From NCBI GenBank assembly GCA_019636845.1, contig JAHBWV010000001.1:1178001-1242000 (forward strand): a stretch of DNA of 64,000 nucleotides, given 5' to 3'. Below, in pieces: positions 18,249 through 27,772 of this stretch. Both the position numbers and the translations under genes were made by a program. Source of the DNA: Phycisphaeraceae bacterium. Lineage in GTDB: Bacteria; Planctomycetota; Phycisphaerae; Phycisphaerales; UBA1924. Position 1 is the stretch's first letter, and every line of letters begins with the position of its first letter. The notes beneath the pieces are model-generated. The model searched no databases and was not told where the DNA came from. It saw only the letters and a program-made list of their open reading frames with translations.

Positions 18249-19301
18249 ATGCGCCTGGCGGTCGATGTCATGGGGGGCGACCACGCTCCTGACGCCATTC
18301 TGCGCGGCTGCGTCGATGCCCTGCCCGACTTGGGCGATGGCGATCGGCTTGTTCTCGTCGGCCCAAGCGACATCATCGTTGATTATCTGAAAGAGCGGCG
18401 CGTCAAGGACGACCGCGTCTCGATCGAGCATGCTTCGGAAGTCATCGCGATGGATGACACGCCGGCGATGGCTGTGCGGACCAAGCGTGACTCGTCGATC
18501 GTCAAAATGTCGATTCTGGGCTCGCACAAGGCGGATCAGCCGTGCGATGCGGTGCTCTCTGCGGGGAATACGGGGGCGTGTGTCGCGGCCGCGATCATGC
18601 ATATGAAGCGGCTGCCGCATGTGCACCGGCCGGGGATTGCTGTGACGATTCCGGCTTTCCACGGTCCGCTGGTGCTCTGTGATGCGGGGGCGAACCCTGA
18701 GCCGAAGGGGGTGCACCTCTGGCAGTACGGGGTGATGTGCCAGGCGCTCGCGCAGCACATGCTGAAGATCGCGTCGCCTCGCGTGGCTCTCATGAATATC
18801 GGATCCGAGGAGGCGAAGGGGTCCGACCTCGTGAAAGAGGCGCGGAATCTGCTTCGCAAGACTCCGGGTCTGAACTACATCGGATATGTCGAGGGACGGG
18901 ACTTCTTCGACGGTGTCGCGGATGTGATCGTGACCGACGGCTTTGTGGGCAACTCGATGCTCAAGATGGCCGAGGGCATGGGCAGCGCGATGATGAAGGC
19001 GATCGTCTCCGAGGTGTTCTCGATCGATCCCGATCTGGGCATGCAGCTCGAGCCCGTGCTGAAACAGATTTACAAGAAGAACGATTATCACGAGTATGGC
19101 GGCGCACCACTGATGGGCGTCAACGGGGTGTGCATGATCGCGCATGGATCCAGCCAGCCCCGGACCATTCGGGCTGCGATCCGGAACACGTTTCAGTATG
19201 TCGCGGCCGGCGTGAATGAAGTCATCGTCAAGCGGTTGGGCGAGGTCGCGGATGTGGCACATGGGGCCGTGGCACCCGTTGCAGGGCAGGAGCACGCATG
19301 A
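18249..19301 (+). CDS. plsX: Phosphate acyltransferase PlsX
   Basis: 350 residues beginning MRLAVDVMGGDHAPDAILRG, the PlsX signature. It also has SAGNTGACVAAAIM, LCDAGANPEPKGVHLWQYGV and DGFVGNSMLKMAEGMGSAMM, all standard for the family. It makes acyl-phosphate from acyl-ACP for PlsY in phospholipid synthesis and is a peripheral membrane enzyme. It follows rpmF by 19 bases and overlaps fabH by four (ATGA). The length is normal for the family. Confidence 0.96.
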   Translation: MRLAVDVMGGDHAPDAILRGCVDALPDLGDGDRLVLVGPSDIIVDYLKERRVKDDRVSIEHASEVIAMDDTPAMAVRTKRDSSIVKMSILGSHKADQPCDAVLSAGNTGACVAAAIMHMKRLPHVHRPGIAVTIPAFHGPLVLCDAGANPEPKGVHLWQYGVMCQALAQHMLKIASPRVALMNIGSEEAKGSDLVKEARNLLRKTPGLNYIGYVEGRDFFDGVADVIVTDGFVGNSMLKMAEGMGSAMMKAIVSEVFSIDPDLGMQLEPVLKQIYKKNDYHEYGGAPLMGVNGVCMIAHGSSQPRTIRAAIRNTFQYVAAGVNEVIVKRLGEVADVAHGAVAPVAGQEHA

Positions 19302-20317
19302 GCGGGCGAGGTCGATCTCCGGTCTGTGTCGGAGTGGAGATCGCTGGAAGCGGATCGTCCTTGCCAGCGCGTCGCGTGACGAACGGTGACCTCGTTGCGA
19401 TGATGGACACGTCCGATGAGTGGATCGTGCAGCGCACGGGGATTCGCGAGCGGCGGATCTACGACCGTGAGAAGGAAGGTACGGCTGACCTTGCTGCTGA
19501 CGCGGCACGGAAGGCCATCGCGGATGCGGGGCTGTTGCCGACGGACATCGATCTTGTCGTCGTCGGCACAATGACGCCTGACTCGCCGACGCCGAGTGTG
19601 GCGTGTGTTGTTGCGGACAGGATCGGTGCGGGGAAGGTCGGTGCGTTTGACGTGAACGGCGCGTGCTGTGGATTCGTCTTTGCGATCAACACCGCGCACG
19701 ATCTCATCAATGGCGGTGCGTATCGGAATGTTGTGGTCGCCGGGGCTGACACGATCACTCGCTTCTGTGATTTCAGCACTGCGGGCAGAAACGTCGCGGT
19801 GTTGTTCGGCGATGCCGCGGCGGCGGTTGTGCTGCGTGTCAGCAGCGACACGAGCCGGGGGCTTCTCGCTCAGGCGATGCACTCTGACGGGGGTGGAGCA
19901 AAGAACCTGTTTGTTCCTGGGCGTAAGCAGGACTTTCCTTCGAATGTCGAGTATGACCCGAAGCGCATCAACCAGATCTACATGGACGGTCAGGCTGTGT
20001 TCAAGTTCGCGGTGGGCACGTTCTCGAAGTTGATCGAGCAGACGCTGGAGCGATCGGGTCTGAAGGCCGACGAGGTTGACCACTACGTGTGCCATCAGTC
20101 GAACTATCGGATCCTCGATTCGGCGCGCGAGCGGTTCGGGTTGTCGCCGGAGCGGCTGCACGTCAACATCGATCGCTATGGGAACACGGTTGGTGCTTCG
20201 GTCCCGCTGGTCTTCGACGAGCTGCGGAAGTCCGGGCGCGTGCAACCGGGTCAGAAGGTGATGTTCCTCGCGTTCGGAGCGGGTCTCACGTGGGGCTCGT
20301 CGCTCTGGCAGCTCTGA
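19298..20317 (+). CDS. fabH: 3-oxoacyl-ACP synthase III
   Basis: 339 residues with the full Cys-His-Asn triad of FabH: Cys123 in NGACCGFVF, His266 in VCHQSNYRIL and Asn296 in RYGNTVGASVPL. The N-terminal TSDEWIVQRTGIRERRI is also diagnostic. It starts type II fatty acid synthesis by condensing acetyl-CoA (or a branched primer) with malonyl-ACP. The start overlaps the plsX stop by four bases, so the two are co-translated. Confidence 0.96.
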   Translation: MSGRGRSPVCVGVEIAGSGSSLPARRVTNGDLVAMMDTSDEWIVQRTGIRERRIYDREKEGTADLAADAARKAIADAGLLPTDIDLVVVGTMTPDSPTPSVACVVADRIGAGKVGAFDVNGACCGFVFAINTAHDLINGGAYRNVVVAGADTITRFCDFSTAGRNVAVLFGDAAAAVVLRVSSDTSRGLLAQAMHSDGGGAKNLFVPGRKQDFPSNVEYDPKRINQIYMDGQAVFKFAVGTFSKLIEQTLERSGLKADEVDHYVCHQSNYRILDSARERFGLSPERLHVNIDRYGNTVGASVPLVFDELRKSGRVQPGQKVMFLAFGAGLTWGSSLWQL

Positions 20318-20565: not shown

Positions 20566-21828
20566 TTGCTCCTCTGCGCGATCCATGATGTAAGGCCGGG
20601 CATGATCCTGGGCTCGCAGGTTCGGGACCCTCGTGCGCCGGATCTTCAGCTGCTGAGGCCCGGGGTTGTGCTCGATGCCGCGCTGCTCGCGAGCATCCGC
20701 AAACGCGGTGTATCTCAGGTCTGGGTTGAGGATGATCTGACGCGCGATCTCGATGCGGCGTTGGCTCCGGAGCTTTCTGCGGCGCGTCTCGAGGTGTATG
20801 CGCGGCTGCGTGATGATCTCTCGTCGATGTCGCGTCGCACGCTCTCGGTTGCCTCGGTGCAGTCGTACCGGCAGGCGGTGATGGGGCTTGTGGTTCAGGC
20901 GATCTCATCGAAGAAGTATGCCGCGATGACCGACTCGCTTTTCGACTCTGATGGCCTTGCCACGCACTCGAGCAACGTCGCGTATCTCTCGCTGATCTGC
21001 GGGCTCCACCTTGAGGGCTACGTCGTATCGGAGCAGCGGCGTCTCTCGCATGAGCAGGCGAGAGACATGGCGGTTCTCGGGATGGCCGGCCTGATGCACG
21101 ATCTCGGGAAGGCTCGTCTCCGGGGCCCCGCGAGCGATACGCACGAGATCCATCTTGAGGGCGATGTGGGACCAGATGGGTATCGAGAACACGGCTGGCT
21201 CGGGCATCGCATGCTGAGCGAGACGCGCGTGCCGGCGCGTGTCGCGCACGCCGCCTTGAACCACCATCAGCGGTTCGACGGTCATGGGTGGCCGGACCTT
21301 ACGCGGTCGAGCGGGGGCAGGGTGAATGGTCCGCTGGCGGGGCACAGGATCCATATCTTTGCGAGGATCGTGTGCGCTGCGAATGTGCTTGACAATCTCA
21401 TGCGCGACGCTTCAGGATCGCGCCGACCACCGGTCGCTGCACTGCATGCCTTTGCCTCCTCGCGATTTGACGGGTGGTTCGATCCGGTTGTGCGTCGGGC
21501 GATGCTGCTGCGGATCCCGCCGTATGCCATCGGTACCGAGGTCACCCTGAGCGATGGGCGAAGGTGCGTGGTGATGTCCCCGAATCCCGAGCGTCCGTGC
21601 AGGCCGGTGGTGCGGGTGCTCGCGGGGGCGAGCGGGGAACGACCACGCGAGACGATGAATGTGGATCTCGCGGATGAGGCAGTCGAGAAACGTGGCGTCG
21701 CCATCACTCATTCGCTTGGAGAGGATGTCTCTGCGTATGTGTACGACGTGCCTGCTGCGCCTCATACTGTACTGATGCAGGACAAAAGGGGCGATGAGAG
21801 GGCACAGAATCGGAGTGCTGCGGCGTGA
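20566..21828 (+). CDS. HD-GYP-type phosphodiesterase with variant motif
   Basis: 420 residues from a TTG at 20566, preceded by an AGGAAG site. The N-terminal ~70 residues (VRPGMILGSQV, then RPGVVLDAALLASIRKRGVS) are the DUF3391-like segment common in front of HD-GYP domains. The catalytic domain has HSSNVAYLSL, LMHDLGKARL, EHGWLGHRML and NHHQRFDGHGWPDL. Canonical proteins read HHE at the last motif and GYP; here they are HHQ and GWP, so metal binding and cyclic di-GMP hydrolysis may be altered. A PilZ-like or beta-rich tail follows. It probably acts in cyclic di-GMP signalling. Confidence 0.78.
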   Translation: MLLCAIHDVRPGMILGSQVRDPRAPDLQLLRPGVVLDAALLASIRKRGVSQVWVEDDLTRDLDAALAPELSAARLEVYARLRDDLSSMSRRTLSVASVQSYRQAVMGLVVQAISSKKYAAMTDSLFDSDGLATHSSNVAYLSLICGLHLEGYVVSEQRRLSHEQARDMAVLGMAGLMHDLGKARLRGPASDTHEIHLEGDVGPDGYREHGWLGHRMLSETRVPARVAHAALNHHQRFDGHGWPDLTRSSGGRVNGPLAGHRIHIFARIVCAANVLDNLMRDASGSRRPPVAALHAFASSRFDGWFDPVVRRAMLLRIPPYAIGTEVTLSDGRRCVVMSPNPERPCRPVVRVLAGASGERPRETMNVDLADEAVEKRGVAITHSLGEDVSAYVYDVPAAPHTVLMQDKRGDERAQNRSAAA

Positions 21829-21862
21829 ACCGGGAGTGGGTCTGAGTGCCTGACGTGGTCTG

Positions 21863-23020
21863 TCACTCCAGCCAGTCCTTTGCTTTCAGGCGCTGTGGGA
21901 CGTACTCCTCGGTGATGTACGAGATGTCCTTCTGCAGCATGGCTTCGACTTCCATCTTGAAGCCGTTCTTGAGGAGTTGGGCGATCTCTTTCTGCCATGG
22001 GCGGTTCTCGGCGAACCAGGGGTAGGCAGCGATCTCGTTGGCGCGCTTGATGTCGTTGTCTGTCAGGGTGATTTTGACGCCGTCGTCGAGCTCGCACTCC
22101 TCGTAGTCTTTCGCGCGGATGCCGAGGAACTTCGCATCCGGAATCGCGAGTCGCGATGATTCGAACGCGAGCGAGATCGAGCCCTGCTTGATGACGCTGT
22201 AGATGTAGTGCCCCCAGGGGTCGTTATCGAGCACGCAGATGATCGGGAGCTTGAGTTCCTGGTTGAGTCGCTGCAGGAGGCGGCGGCAGCCTCGTGGCGG
22301 CTGTCCACCGCCATGGGTCAGGATGCAGTTGTGCTTCTCCCAGAAGCGGTCCTCATTGAAACGTTGCCAGACCGTGTCCTTCTCGACATGGAGGACAAAC
22401 TTTGCTTCACACTTCCCGAACTGGAGCGCGCTCGGCTCGACGATGGACGGGATGCCCCAGCCCCCCGACCCCATGCGCCTTGCGTTGATCTCGTCTCCCT
22501 TGTCGATGATGGTGATGTTGCCGACGAGATTTCCCCTCGTCGACGCGAAGATGTGAAGCTCTTCACGGAGCGCGCCGAGCGAGACCTCGAGGTCTTCGAG
22601 GATCGGGTCGGACTCGTCCTGCGTGTCGAAAGTGTTCTCCTTGGTGCCTGCGACGGTGTGCTTCGCGCGATAGAAGACACCACGGAGCGAGCTGGTCTTG
22701 CCTTGTTCGATGAGGTCCTTGATCGTGCTCGCGTGCAGCATGGTCTGCATGAACTGCTTGGCTGTTTTCAGGTCGAAGAGGGGGCGATCGGCCTTGGCAT
22801 CGCCCATCTCGAGGATGCCCTTCTTCCGGTTCCAACTGGTGTTGCTCTTGGTGCGAAGGGGGATGTGGATGACAGGGTCTTTGCCGCTCATGCCGCGCTT
22901 TACGACCATCTCGGAGAGCCCGACGAGCTTTCCGATCGTCTTCACGTCCCGCTCGGGGAGCGTGCCGATCGGCTTCTTTGCTGTTGTCGATGCGGTCTTT
23001 GGTGCGGGTTTGCGGGCCAT
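21863..23020 (-). CDS. top6A: DNA topoisomerase VI subunit A (Spo11-like)
   Basis: 385 residues. The CAP domain carries SSLRGVFYRAKH with the nucleophilic tyrosine at about residue 117. The Toprim domain has FVLHVEKDTVWQ (Glu213) and VLDNDPWGHYIYSV (Asp265, Asp267) for magnesium. A lysine-rich tail of ~20 residues precedes the fold. With subunit B it forms a type IIB enzyme that makes ATP-dependent double-strand passage. Topoisomerase VI is mainly archaeal and plant and patchy in bacteria, so acquisition by transfer in an ancestor is likely. The partner gene lies two genes upstream on the same strand. Confidence 0.92.
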   Translation of the reverse strand: MARKPAPKTASTTAKKPIGTLPERDVKTIGKLVGLSEMVVKRGMSGKDPVIHIPLRTKSNTSWNRKKGILEMGDAKADRPLFDLKTAKQFMQTMLHASTIKDLIEQGKTSSLRGVFYRAKHTVAGTKENTFDTQDESDPILEDLEVSLGALREELHIFASTRGNLVGNITIIDKGDEINARRMGSGGWGIPSIVEPSALQFGKCEAKFVLHVEKDTVWQRFNEDRFWEKHNCILTHGGGQPPRGCRRLLQRLNQELKLPIICVLDNDPWGHYIYSVIKQGSISLAFESSRLAIPDAKFLGIRAKDYEECELDDGVKITLTDNDIKRANEIAAYPWFAENRPWQKEIAQLLKNGFKMEVEAMLQKDISYITEEYVPQRLKAKDWLE

Positions 23021-23071
23021 CGAAGGGTCCTGTGTCGAGCGGAGAGCGGGGCGTGGTGGTGCGTGAGCGGT

Positions 23072-23539
23072 TTACTTGGCGCGTGAGAACTTCATGAGCT
23101 CGCCTGCGGCATTCGAGAGTGAGAGGGTGTCGCCCTTGACCGAGATGCCAGTCGCCTCGCCGAGTGCTTTCAGGAACGAGTCCTCGAAGTTCATCGCCTC
23201 GGGTGATCCGGCCATCTTCGTGCTCGCTGTCGGTGCGAGCTTGAACTGGCCCTTGGCCAGCGACTCCAGATCGATGGATGAAGCGAGGCGGTTGATACCG
23301 CCTGTGCCGGAGACCTTGCCGTCTTCCGTGAAGGAGAGCGATGGAACGCGAAGCCCCTGAGGCATGATCGTCGAGAGGTCGGCTCCTCGCAGCGAGGTGA
23401 GGTTCCAGTCGCCTGCGAGTTTCTGGATCATGGCGGCGGAGTCTGTCATGCTCTGGCCGGATCGGCAGCCCGACAGCGATGTGATCGCAAGGGGGAGCGA
23501 CAGCGCGGACCCGATCAGGATGATGCGTGCGATGTGCAT
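23072..23539 (-). CDS. META-domain-like lipoprotein
   Basis: 155 residues from ATG 23539, with AAGGAGA five bases upstream. The N-terminus (MHIARIILIGSALSL, then SLSGC) is a lipoprotein signal. The rest resembles the META/HslJ fold: LAGDWNLTSLRGADLS, SLSFTEDGKVSGTGGINRLA, and the closing GELMKFSRAK. Family members are small beta-rich envelope proteins of uncertain function. It sits 40 bases downstream of topoisomerase VI subunit B and 51 bases upstream of subunit A. Confidence 0.7.
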   Translation of the reverse strand: MHIARIILIGSALSLPLAITSLSGCRSGQSMTDSAAMIQKLAGDWNLTSLRGADLSTIMPQGLRVPSLSFTEDGKVSGTGGINRLASSIDLESLAKGQFKLAPTASTKMAGSPEAMNFEDSFLKALGEATGISVKGDTLSLSNAAGELMKFSRAK

Positions 23540-23579
23540 GTGTATCTCCTTCGATGAGCGATGTCTGTGGCGGCCTGAG

Positions 23580-25949
23580 TCAGAACAGGCCGGGGTCTTG
23601 TTTCGGGACGAGTTTGATCTGTATTCGCGGCTTGGAGGGGCGGGCCGTTGATGGTAGTGGTTCGGCTGCGTGGCGAGCCTCGGCCTTCTTTGCGGCGGTC
23701 TTCGGGCCGGTGTTCGCTGTCGGGACATTGGCGCGAGTGGATCTCGCGGGTGCAGTCGAGCGTTGCGAGCCCGACGAGTCGCCTTGTGGCTCCTTGGTTC
23801 TCTCACGCGGCTTTGCCTGGTTGCCCTTCTGATTGAGGCGCTTGGGAGGGCGGACATCGATCAGCGTCGGCTCTTCGTCAGTGGCACGCAACGCATGCAC
23901 CTTGAGTGCCGCGGCTTCCGCGCGGGAGGGCTTGCCGATCGGCGGTGCATCGCCAAGGTCCCCGACATCGGAGGAACCGGCGGGCTCGACGATGATGACG
24001 CCGTCTTCGTCGGCGTCGATGGAATTGTCCTTGACGGCCTTACCATCCTGATCGAGTTCGAGATCGGCCACCGCGGTCTTTCGCTTAGCTTGTTCGAGCA
24101 GGGCGGCATAGAGCTCCTGGGCATCCACGCCGCTGATGGCGTTGCATGCCTTGGCGATCTCTCCGATGTACTTCTGGAAGACGTCTCGGCGCTCGCCCTC
24201 GCGGCGCATCTTGGCACGCTTCTTCAGGTATGTGCCGAGTTTGCGGCCGCACTCCTGGAGTGCGAGTTTCATCTCTTTGCGGATCTCGTCGTAGTCTGCG
24301 ATGGCCTCTTTGGATTCGCTGGTGAAGGGGACCCACACGCTCGCCATGTGGATCATGATGACCATCGGTCCGATCGGCACGCCTCCGCGGGGGTGCTGGA
24401 GGTCGTAGTTTCGCCAGTTCGTCTCGGTGACGGCTTTGAAGGATGAGCACGCGGACTGTTGATAGAGGAGCGGGACGCGGTTGGCGAAGCGGATGACGCG
24501 GGCGGGCTCGTCGGCTTTCAGTTCGCCGCCGAACGCGAGTGCGGCTTCGATCTGGAACGGGCGGCCACGATAGACATCGGGCTCGCGGCTCGACGCGGCG
24601 TAGAACTCAGCACGCACACCCTTGAGCATGCCGGCGAGCAGCTGGCGCACACCGATCGGAGCGAGGCAATCGGTGGGTGGAGGCGGGAGCTTTGAATCCT
24701 GGAGGACCTTGAAGAGCCGCTCTGCCTGGTCGTGGTCGATGTCCGATATGCGTGTTCGGGCTGTGGCCTTGATGGTCTGGCAGAACGAGCTGGCGGATGC
24801 CGCGGAGACGCGCGAGAACTTGTCCTGGAGGAAGCTGTAGAGCGTGTAGTTGTCGCGCTCGGCCTGGGCCTCTTTGAGCATCTGAAGAAGGATGCCGAGT
24901 TCGATGCCTCTGGGGTGGGGCTGGATTTCTTTGGTTTCTGGCGGGAGTTCGGTGACGGCTCTCGGGTAGACCGTAACGCCGCCGGTTTCGAGCGTGACGA
25001 CGGGAGTATTCGGCTGTGCGCTGCTGTCGGCATGTGCGTCGGTCTGAGCCGCGGGTTCAGAGAGTGTTGCTCCGTTTGAACCTCCCTTCGGGAGCAGCGG
25101 GGCGTCGTCAGCGTCTTCCGGCGAGCTTTCCTTGGATGGGGGGACGAAGACGAACCGCGCGTGCGGGTTTGCGATCGCGGTGAGTTCGAGGAACTCATCG
25201 ACACTGCCTCGGCCCTTCTGGTACCGGCCTTCGAGTTCGATCGAGACGCTGGTGCCGGTTGTGTAGTCCTTCGCGGCGAGGAACTGGTCCCGTTCGGCGA
25301 GGTCGCGGGTGCCGGAGGTCAGAGAGTTGAAGCGACGCGGGGGAAAGTCGTCGGTCTCGACGTCGACAGTGACCTCGGCGCGATTGGTCTTGGTGTTCAT
25401 GGCCAGCTCGATGTGGTGAGCCGGCTGAGTGGCCTTGGGCTTGGTGTGGATGACCATCGGCTTGCCGGTGGTGATCAACCCGTACATGCCCGCAGCGGAG
25501 ATGCCGATGCCCTGCTGGCCTCGGGACATCTTGAGCCGATGGAACTTCGACCCGAAGAGCAGCCGCCCGAAGACGTTCTCGACCTGCTTGCGGACGATAC
25601 CGGGCCCGTTGTCGGCGACGGTCACGCGGTATCGTGACGCTTTGGAGTTTGCGGGTCGGTTGGGCTGGAGATCCTCGATGATGACGGTGATGTCGGGGAG
25701 GATGCCGGCTTCTTCGCATGCATCGAGCGAGTTGTCGACGGCTTCCTTGACTGTCGTCAGGAGGGCCTTGCGGGGGTTGTCAAACCCGAGAAGGTGCCTG
25801 TTCTTGGCGAAGAACTCGGAGACAGAGATGTCTCGCTGCTTCGACGCCATGCTTTCAGCGGTGGCGCGCGGCAAGTGCTTGGGCTTTCTCATCGGCATCC
25901 GTGTTGTTTCCGACGTGTCCGGCGCGTCGGGGAGGAGTGTGGTCGGCAT
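23580..25949 (-). CDS. top6B: DNA topoisomerase VI subunit B (GHKL ATPase)
   Basis: 789 residues. The Bergerat ATP-binding fold is clear: N-box KEAVDNSLDACEEAG (near 68-82), ADNGPGI (112-118), and RGQQGIGISAAGMYGLITTG. The transducer region follows with RFANRVPLLYQQSACSSFKA. It is larger than archaeal homologues, with an acidic, low-complexity insertion near residues 285-325 and a ~110-residue basic Pro/Ala/Lys-rich tail that may bind DNA. Several in-frame starts exist (Met18, Met34), so the exact N-terminus is uncertain. Confidence 0.92.
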   Translation of the reverse strand: MPTTLLPDAPDTSETTRMPMRKPKHLPRATAESMASKQRDISVSEFFAKNRHLLGFDNPRKALLTTVKEAVDNSLDACEEAGILPDITVIIEDLQPNRPANSKASRYRVTVADNGPGIVRKQVENVFGRLLFGSKFHRLKMSRGQQGIGISAAGMYGLITTGKPMVIHTKPKATQPAHHIELAMNTKTNRAEVTVDVETDDFPPRRFNSLTSGTRDLAERDQFLAAKDYTTGTSVSIELEGRYQKGRGSVDEFLELTAIANPHARFVFVPPSKESSPEDADDAPLLPKGGSNGATLSEPAAQTDAHADSSAQPNTPVVTLETGGVTVYPRAVTELPPETKEIQPHPRGIELGILLQMLKEAQAERDNYTLYSFLQDKFSRVSAASASSFCQTIKATARTRISDIDHDQAERLFKVLQDSKLPPPPTDCLAPIGVRQLLAGMLKGVRAEFYAASSREPDVYRGRPFQIEAALAFGGELKADEPARVIRFANRVPLLYQQSACSSFKAVTETNWRNYDLQHPRGGVPIGPMVIMIHMASVWVPFTSESKEAIADYDEIRKEMKLALQECGRKLGTYLKKRAKMRREGERRDVFQKYIGEIAKACNAISGVDAQELYAALLEQAKRKTAVADLELDQDGKAVKDNSIDADEDGVIIVEPAGSSDVGDLGDAPPIGKPSRAEAAALKVHALRATDEEPTLIDVRPPKRLNQKGNQAKPRERTKEPQGDSSGSQRSTAPARSTRANVPTANTGPKTAAKKAEARHAAEPLPSTARPSKPRIQIKLVPKQDPGLF

Positions 25950-26062
25950 CGCGGCCCTCCGTGGCTGCGGCTTATTTTAGTGCTTCGCCGAGGTGTGAGG
26001 CGAGCGTGGGGTGAGACTCGTGCCAGTTCCTCTCGGGCGACGCGCGGGTGATGGTGGTGGGA

Positions 26063-27772
26063 TTATGGCCCGACGGTGGCCGGCGAGTAATGCAGCGGGG
26101 CGTCCGGGCCGAGAGGGAGCCCGGTCTGCATCCAGATCACGATGAAGATCCCCCATGCGAGAGCGAACGCAATCGAGAAGGGAAGCATGGTGGAGACGAG
26201 CGTACCGATTCCGGCGCGGGGTGCGAACTTCTGCATGACCGCGAGGATGATGATCATGTACGCGTTCATGGGGGTGATGATGTTCGTCGCGCTGTCGGCG
26301 ACACGGTAGCCCGCCTGTGTGAGCTCGGGGCTGATGCCGAGCATCATGAACATGGGGACGAAGATCGGAGCGACAAGGACGTACTTCGCGGACATGGAGC
26401 TGATCAGGAGGTTCAGGAACATGACGAGAACGATGAAGCCGAGGATGACCACGCTCGCGGGCAGGTTCGCCTCAGCCAGTCGTGTGCCGCCGATGATGGC
26501 GAGCATCTGTCCGAGGTTCGAGTGCGTGAAGAAGGCAATGAACTGAGATGCGAAGAAAGCCATCGTGATGACAGGTGCCATGGATCGCATGGCGTGGATC
26601 ATGCAGGAGATGACGTCTTTCTGAGATCGGATCTGTCCGGTGGCGACGCCGTAGGCCGCGCCGGGAACGAGGAATGCGAAGAGGACGATGGGGACGACGG
26701 CGTTGACCCAGCGAGTAGAGGATCGGCCGGTTGATGTGTCAAGGAACGATCCATTGAGGGGGGCGCCGGGCACAAGGATGAGGGCTCCGAGAGCGGCCAT
26801 GAACAGAGTGAGCGCAACTCCCGCCCACACGAGGCCCTTCAACTCTGTCGAGGTGAGGCGCATCGAGGCGAGATCGATCTTCGCGTTCGGGGATGGCCCA
26901 CCCTCATCTGCGGGGCGGTTCTTCAGGCGGGGTTCGACGATGAGGGCCGCGACCGCCCAGCCGACGGCGACGAGCAGAACGGTGGAAGCCGCAAGGAAGT
27001 ACCAGTTAGCGGTCGCGTCTACATCGTAATTCGGATCGAGTATGTGCGCATTCGAGGTGGTGATGCCAGCGATGAGCGCGTCGGTGCCACCGATCAGGAG
27101 GTTTGCGCTGAAGCCGGCGGAGACGCCGGCGAACGCCGCGGCGATGCCCGCAAGAGGTGAGCGGCCTGAGGCAAGGTAGAGTGCGGCGGCCAGCGGCGGG
27201 AGCACGATGTACCCGGCATCGCTCGCGATGTTGGCCATGATTCCGATGAAGATCATCGCGGGAGTGAGCAGCTTCTGGGGGACGAGAAGTGCCATGCCCT
27301 TGATCAGCGTGTCGAAGAGGCCGGTTTTCTCGGCGACGCCGACGCCGAACATCGCGACCAGAACGATGCCGAGCGGCGGGAACCGAACGAAATTGTTGAC
27401 CATGTTCGCGAGGCACCAATAAATGCCATCCGCGCTGAGCAGACTGCGGGCTGTGATCGGATCGCCGGACTCAATGAGTTCGGTCTTGGGCCGACCAGTC
27501 CGGGTGTCGATCACGGGTTCGGTCTTCGGCAGGCCTGTCTCGGCATCGATGACCGGTACACCGGAGGCATCGACGATCTGCGTCGTGACCTCTTGCATGC
27601 GGATGGGGGTGACCGACCAACCGGCGACGACGCCGAGGTGTGAGACGACCATGATCAGGATGCAGCCGTAGAAGAAGAGGAGCGCGGGATCGGGGAGAGC
27701 GTTGCCGATTCGCTCGATGAGCCCCAGAATGCCGCGTGGGGCGGATGCGGGGACTGGTGTCGATTCTGCCAT
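26063..27772 (-). CDS. AbgT-family transporter
   Basis: 569 residues with about a dozen hydrophobic helices, matching AbgT-family carriers: GLIERIGNALPDPALLFFYG at the N-terminus, then NNFVRFPPLGIVLVAMFGVG, VEKTGLFDTLI-like sequence and TPMNAYMIIILAVMQKF. The family was named for p-aminobenzoyl-glutamate uptake, and some members export sulfonamides. A ~50-residue insertion after the first helix (VTTQIVDASGVPVID, then RTGRPKTEL) contains a short internal duplication. GGAGG lies six bases before the ATG. Substrate cannot be read from the sequence. Confidence 0.88.
   Translation of the reverse strand: MAESTPVPASAPRGILGLIERIGNALPDPALLFFYGCILIMVVSHLGVVAGWSVTPIRMQEVTTQIVDASGVPVIDAETGLPKTEPVIDTRTGRPKTELIESGDPITARSLLSADGIYWCLANMVNNFVRFPPLGIVLVAMFGVGVAEKTGLFDTLIKGMALLVPQKLLTPAMIFIGIMANIASDAGYIVLPPLAAALYLASGRSPLAGIAAAFAGVSAGFSANLLIGGTDALIAGITTSNAHILDPNYDVDATANWYFLAASTVLLVAVGWAVAALIVEPRLKNRPADEGGPSPNAKIDLASMRLTSTELKGLVWAGVALTLFMAALGALILVPGAPLNGSFLDTSTGRSSTRWVNAVVPIVLFAFLVPGAAYGVATGQIRSQKDVISCMIHAMRSMAPVITMAFFASQFIAFFTHSNLGQMLAIIGGTRLAEANLPASVVILGFIVLVMFLNLLISSMSAKYVLVAPIFVPMFMMLGISPELTQAGYRVADSATNIITPMNAYMIIILAVMQKFAPRAGIGTLVSTMLPFSIAFALAWGIFIVIWMQTGLPLGPDAPLHYSPATVGP

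Follow-up and report, generated by a model that had tools for sequence, protein, structure and literature searches.

Topoisomerase VI beside gyrase in a bacterium raises the question of what the enzyme does there, and the first-pass annotation of a locus from a Phycisphaeraceae bacterium (contig JAHBWV010000001.1) had read its retention as a sign of a real function beside gyrase. The stretch analysed here, the window, comprises 64,000 nucleotides of this contig; open reading frames and domain matches place on its minus strand, from 25949 to 21863, the genes for topo VI subunit B, a META lipoprotein and subunit A, in that order (Table 1). We consider it likely that topo VI is this cell's dedicated decatenase, taking the role played by topo IV (ParC/ParE) in other bacteria. 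Directly established for this role are intact genes, a single gyrase, no topo IV and a phylum-wide alternation of the two enzymes; topo VI activity, decatenation in the cell, essentiality and the direction of the replacements we infer.

Table 1 Features of the topo VI locus in the window
Feature	Position	Strand	Basis or remark
Topoisomerase VI subunit B (GHKL ATPase, H2TH, transducer), 789 aa	23580..25949	-	Pfam, NCBIfam, PDB sequence and fold matches
META-domain lipoprotein, 155 aa, incidental insertion between subunit genes	23072..23539	-	PF03724 1.4e-20; gap without META in most relatives
Topoisomerase VI subunit A (winged helix with Tyr117, Toprim), 385 aa, type I lineage	21863..23020	-	Pfam, NCBIfam, PDB sequence matches, alignment
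Subunit B acidic insertion, residues 273-322, GHKL-H2TH joint, in part of the order only	24984..25133	-	residues 283-313 predicted disordered
Subunit B C-terminal tail, residues 606-789, variable	23583..24134	-	mostly predicted disordered from about residue 658

The subunit B frame, which runs from an ATG start to a TGA stop, matches Topo-VIb_trans (6.6e-57) and TIGR01052 (443.8 bits against a cut-off of 380.7) and contains GHKL, H2TH and transducer domains. In an AlphaFold model of this subunit (mean pLDDT 72.9), the B subunits of M. mazei and S. shibatae topo VI were by far the best fold matches in the PDB. Subunit A matches Toprim (1.5e-57) and NF003333 (516 bits against a cut-off of 465), and in an alignment its winged-helix tyrosine, Tyr117, lines up with the catalytic tyrosine of M. 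jannaschii 1d3y, which we take to be Tyr103. The key residues were said in the earlier annotation to be kept in both subunits, and the alignments bear this out: Tyr117 and the Toprim acids E213, D265 and D267 are unchanged in 13 of 13 aligned A proteins, as are the N-box (E69, D72, N73), DNGPGI (113-118), GQQGIGI (144-150) and K547 of the ESK motif in 38 of 38 aligned B proteins. Two subunits encoded in one genome, as a rule next to each other, are a hallmark of topo VI, and both are present here. Judged from sequence, the locus appears to encode a working type IIB topoisomerase (topo VI, A2B2); such an enzyme would carry out ATP-dependent double-strand passage with 2-nt overhangs. Two other identities were considered. 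In topoisomerase VIII the A and B parts are fused in one chain, and this identity was rejected because A and B are here two separate frames with a gene between them; Spo11 is an A subunit without a true topo VI B partner and was rejected on the presence of a full subunit B.

The gene between the subunits is, as first annotated, a META-type lipoprotein on the same strand. Its longest frame begins too early, and the likely gene is the one in Table 1, which has an AAGGAG ribosome site; the META domain lies behind a lipobox, LSGC, read by eye, the arrangement of META/HslJ lipoproteins. Since the gaps on either side measure only 40 nt (B to lipoprotein) and 51 nt (lipoprotein to A), and a scan of 21600-26200 showed no terminator-like site on the minus strand, a single transcript for the three genes is plausible. 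This close packing, together with a META gene in the B-A gap in 4 of 4 genomes of the window's genus and in one further genome (G018), is what would favour a functional unit of lipoprotein and topo VI, for instance one that couples DNA topology to the envelope. We regard such a unit as very improbable. In 33 genomes, the window's among them, both subunits lie in a single stretch: B directly precedes A, within 113 nt, in 16, the gap holds META in 5 and something else in 11, and the genes lie on opposite strands in 1. The other genes in the gap are unrelated ones, encoding 3-keto-disaccharide hydrolase, SnoaL-like, RibD C-terminal domain and SMI1/KNR4 proteins. Of 80 named loci, which partly come from the same genomes and from which records near the window's may have been left out, 60 contain both subunits, with B and A adjacent in 43, an insertion in 16, opposite strands in 1 and META in none. 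META relatives are present in 20 of 61 genomes, mostly away from topo VI. Any meaning of the intervening gene is therefore not supported: the lipoprotein is a passenger, a chance lodger without a part in topo VI. The B-A gap takes unrelated genes repeatedly (L081-L093, L102, L104, L108, L226, L233), chiefly in the window's family but in Pirellulales-like genomes as well, and most lineages keep B and A adjacent. Beside the unit, on the opposite strand, lie tandem PlsX-like (PF02504) and FabH-like genes (window 18249-20317, plus strand).

Topo VI had been called uncommon in bacteria, which does not hold in this setting. A search of 61 related genomes, counting the window's, found subunit A in 55 and subunit B in 53. 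The genomes without subunit A are five of family f6 and one that is 88% complete (G011); outside f6, it is present in 55 of 56. Across 294 genomes of the phylum, subunit A was matched in 170, and topo VI was scored in 172 after two corrections, for G058 and G194, in which subunit B was found. That topo VI might be a recently acquired, decaying or non-functional foreign operon is scarcely credible: the differing histories of its subunits, described below, speak for it, but it is already contradicted by the invariant catalytic residues and by the occurrence of the enzyme throughout the order and across the phylum. A phage origin is without support, as none of 50,697 phage records matched topo VI. 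Subunit A also occurs on three haloarchaeal plasmids; at L245-L247 such plasmids carry topo VI genes, with gyrB nearby in Natronorubrum bangense. In family f35, one genome (G087, locus L397) carries subunits A and B that are 80% and 71% identical to the window's, and its GyrA groups with that of f13; either an operon transfer or a mis-binned contig would account for this. A genome of the window's own family, 98% complete and from an otherwise topo-VI-bearing genus (G174), lacks both subunits and has a single GyrA (L365), so that it has either gyrase only or an assembly gap.

The window's genome has a single GyrA/ParC gene, which carries two GyrA boxes, and a single GyrB/ParE gene; no topo IV (ParC/ParE beside gyrase) was found there. 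Family f6, of the same order, provides the contrast: topo VI A is absent from all five genomes, each of which has two GyrA/ParC and two GyrB/ParE genes, with parE within a few kb of parC on the same contig in three. Among the other 56 genomes, two PF00521 matches were obtained in five; these lie in one frame in G015 and are complementary pieces in G030 and G031, with G002 and G034 unexplained. Two PF00204 matches were obtained in G043 only.

The same pattern extends to the phylum. Of the 294 genomes, 164 have topo VI only, 8 have both enzymes, 43 have neither and 79 have topo IV only; for just 18 of this last group was ParC read and examined for a GyrA box, the others being scored by copy number. 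Before the final count, ParC was removed for a split gene (G305), a 20-bit match (G315), a 93-residue piece (G142, entered in the tree with unknown state), a split gyrA (G204) and two genomes in which both copies have a GyrA box (G121, G220), and it was added for G102, whose sole copy lacks one. Of the 124 GyrA proteins used, 122 have strict GyrA boxes; of the 26 ParC-like copies read, 25 lack them (G299 has one). Raw Fisher p-values ignore relatedness and were not leaned on. On a GyrA tree of 124 genomes, topo VI requires at least 26 changes and ParC at least 21, and independent pairs differed in the opposite sense in 7.0 cases and in the same sense in 0.0, with no difference in 9.0 (median p 0.0156, range 0.0078-0.125); in the other direction the counts were 7.8 versus 0.7 (median p 0.031, range 0.002-0.29). 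The sign test fell short of significance on an earlier tree of 85 genomes (median p 0.125 and 0.07), and the 39 genomes added thereafter, many from mixed-state families, enlarged the set after a first look, by our own choice.

The two kinds of ParC, which were separated after their sequences had been seen and, for unread copies, by domain score and length, behave differently. ParC-1 alone gave 6.6 versus 0.0 pairs (median p 0.0156), whereas short ParC-2 showed no association with topo VI on the 124-genome tree (median p 1). Topo VI stands beside ParC-1 in 1 of 24 tree genomes (G151) and beside short ParC-2 in 7 of 20; 7 of the 8 genomes with both enzymes carry short ParC-2. Topo VI and topo IV tend to stand in for one another in this phylum, and once relatedness is allowed for, the alternation holds for one kind of topo IV only. 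Together with the near-universal presence of subunit A outside f6, this alternation supports the retained function beside gyrase that had been proposed for the locus.

The decatenase role is favoured by the conserved catalytic residues, the single gyrase of the window's genome, the contrast with f6 and the phylum-wide alternation. Counting against it are the sign test on 85 genomes, the copy-number scoring of most topo-IV-only genomes, the 8 genomes with both enzymes and the 43 with neither, G174 among them, the latter indicating that gyrase alone can suffice. These gyrase-only genomes, and the absence of both enzymes from G174 within an otherwise topo-VI-bearing genus, are what would be seen if gyrase did all essential unlinking, topo VI had a side role (repair, stress, DNA-break formation) and the alternation were lineage history. 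We consider this unlikely given the retention of topo VI in 55 of 56 genomes of the order outside f6 and the relatedness-aware sign test on the 124-genome tree. If topo VI is the dedicated decatenase, subunit B would bind ATP and close on a crossing of two duplexes, and subunit A would cut one duplex via Tyr117 with Toprim-bound metal while the other passes. Replicated chromosomes could thus be separated through topo VI, with gyrase keeping the DNA negatively supercoiled, and one kind of topo IV would have passed between lineages of the phylum that mostly lack topo VI.

Such movement is suggested by the ParC proteins themselves. The ParC-1 proteins of f6, f13, f19, f30 and f54 form one clade (support 100), within which those of f6 are not one group. 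Of 39 pairs drawn from different families within this clade, 37 show a higher identity for ParC than for GyrA, by as much as 17 points, and 2 show equal identities, whereas within families GyrA identity is the higher in 16 of 16 pairs. Because ParC is more alike than GyrA across families and the opposite holds within them, topo IV of the ParC-1 type has probably moved between families. The holders of the ParC-1 clade that were read are without topo VI except G151 (L163, L164), the sole genome read with both, which was possibly caught during replacement. For Planctopirus limnophila, the sections available of PMC10632474 count DNA topoisomerase subunits among the groups of paralogs in which two members are essential.

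The subunits of topo VI themselves appear to differ in history. Subunit A of the phylum is of two kinds, about 33% identical, the window's being type I. In the A tree, type I groups with S. shibatae (100/99) and type II with M. jannaschii (99/96), and a single clade of both types is rejected (AU p 0.0001). In the B tree, the B proteins of both kinds cluster together to the exclusion of M. mazei and two haloarchaea (100/100), and the branches separating the kinds are short. The archaeal sample in these trees is six or fewer, M. jannaschii B not among them. When S. shibatae is included, an A-like split of B is not rejected (AU p 0.459), and this topology is not decisive given the great length of the S. 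shibatae B branch. The better argument for two sources is the median A/B distance ratio: type I taken by itself gives 0.80 and type II 0.69, compared with 2.50 (1.80-3.16) across the two types. These data would fit a swap of subunit A in one of the lineages, which is probable; the alternative is a burst of change in A, and neither is proven. Different sources for the subunits had been named in the first-pass annotation as a finding that would refute it. Such sources are probably what the trees and the ratio reveal, yet they do not argue against function, because the A-B pair has been inherited together across several families. Tentatively, and at somewhat less than even probability, we suggest that the window's topo VI is a hybrid from two archaeal sources, combining a Sulfolobus-like A with a Methanosarcina-like B common to the bacterial lineage with a Methanocaldococcus-like A, that it became the main decatenase of a large part of the phylum, and that a single horizontally transferred topo IV has replaced it on several occasions since.

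The large acidic insertion and basic tail first described for subunit B both exist: the insertion, between the GHKL and H2TH parts, has 50 residues and a net charge of -7, and the 184-residue tail has a net charge of only +2, with +10 in its last 130 residues. At the insertion site, most B proteins of the window's order have 23-56 residues and five have 3-6, compared with 2-3 in all other bacteria and archaea examined except G087 (29). The tail measures 97-203 residues in the window's order versus 24-31 in the type II lineage. For residues 283-313 and 690-785 the AlphaFold model predicts no structure, and both parts look like disordered, lineage-specific additions.

A replacement of topo IV by topo VI is already proposed in print from 17 bacterial families; new here are the phylum-wide test and the probable two-source origin of the subunits. 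In the sections available of Allen and Maxwell 2024 (PMC11302465), five of these 17 families with topo VI are planctomycete and lack topo IV, and topo VI is proposed as compensation for the missing enzyme. The same sections list 7 of the 17 with both enzymes, which counts against replacement, call the role of topo VI in bacteria an open question, describe two bacterial clusters for A and two for B, mention as unpublished the complementation of a temperature-sensitive E. coli parE or parC strain by M. mazei topo VI, and contain no phylum-wide test of alternation. We found no planctomycete-wide test of topo VI versus topo IV in the open-licence literature. The preference of M. mazei topo VI for decatenation, given in the available part of McKie et al. 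2022 (PMC8837201), counts for the decatenase role. Within the Planctomycetota, sister lineages that have either topo VI or topo IV serve as natural replicates. If topo VI decatenates here, these bacteria would depend on an archaeal-type enzyme to separate their chromosomes; subunit exchange between topo VI lineages that differ deeply, if true, would bear on how loosely A and B must match.

Among known systems, topo IV would do the same job, decatenation, and is a type IIA enzyme of other architecture. The topo VI of Pirellulales and other planctomycetes, as far as described in those sections of PMC11302465, resembles the window's in having both subunits, a GHKL-H2TH-transducer B, gyrase and no topo IV; the list of families given there does not include the window's order, and the window's B differs in the insertion and long tail. 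M. mazei topo VI (PDB 2q2e, 9o0g) is the top PDB match to the window's B by sequence and fold (422 bits, versus 256 for S. shibatae, which is far more distant). For the window's A, by contrast, the top PDB match is Saccharolobus (Sulfolobus) shibatae topo VI (PDB 2zbk; 259 bits, versus 160 for M. mazei), with which it has in common a longer loop and the segment GSISL..ES.RLA.PDAKFLG.
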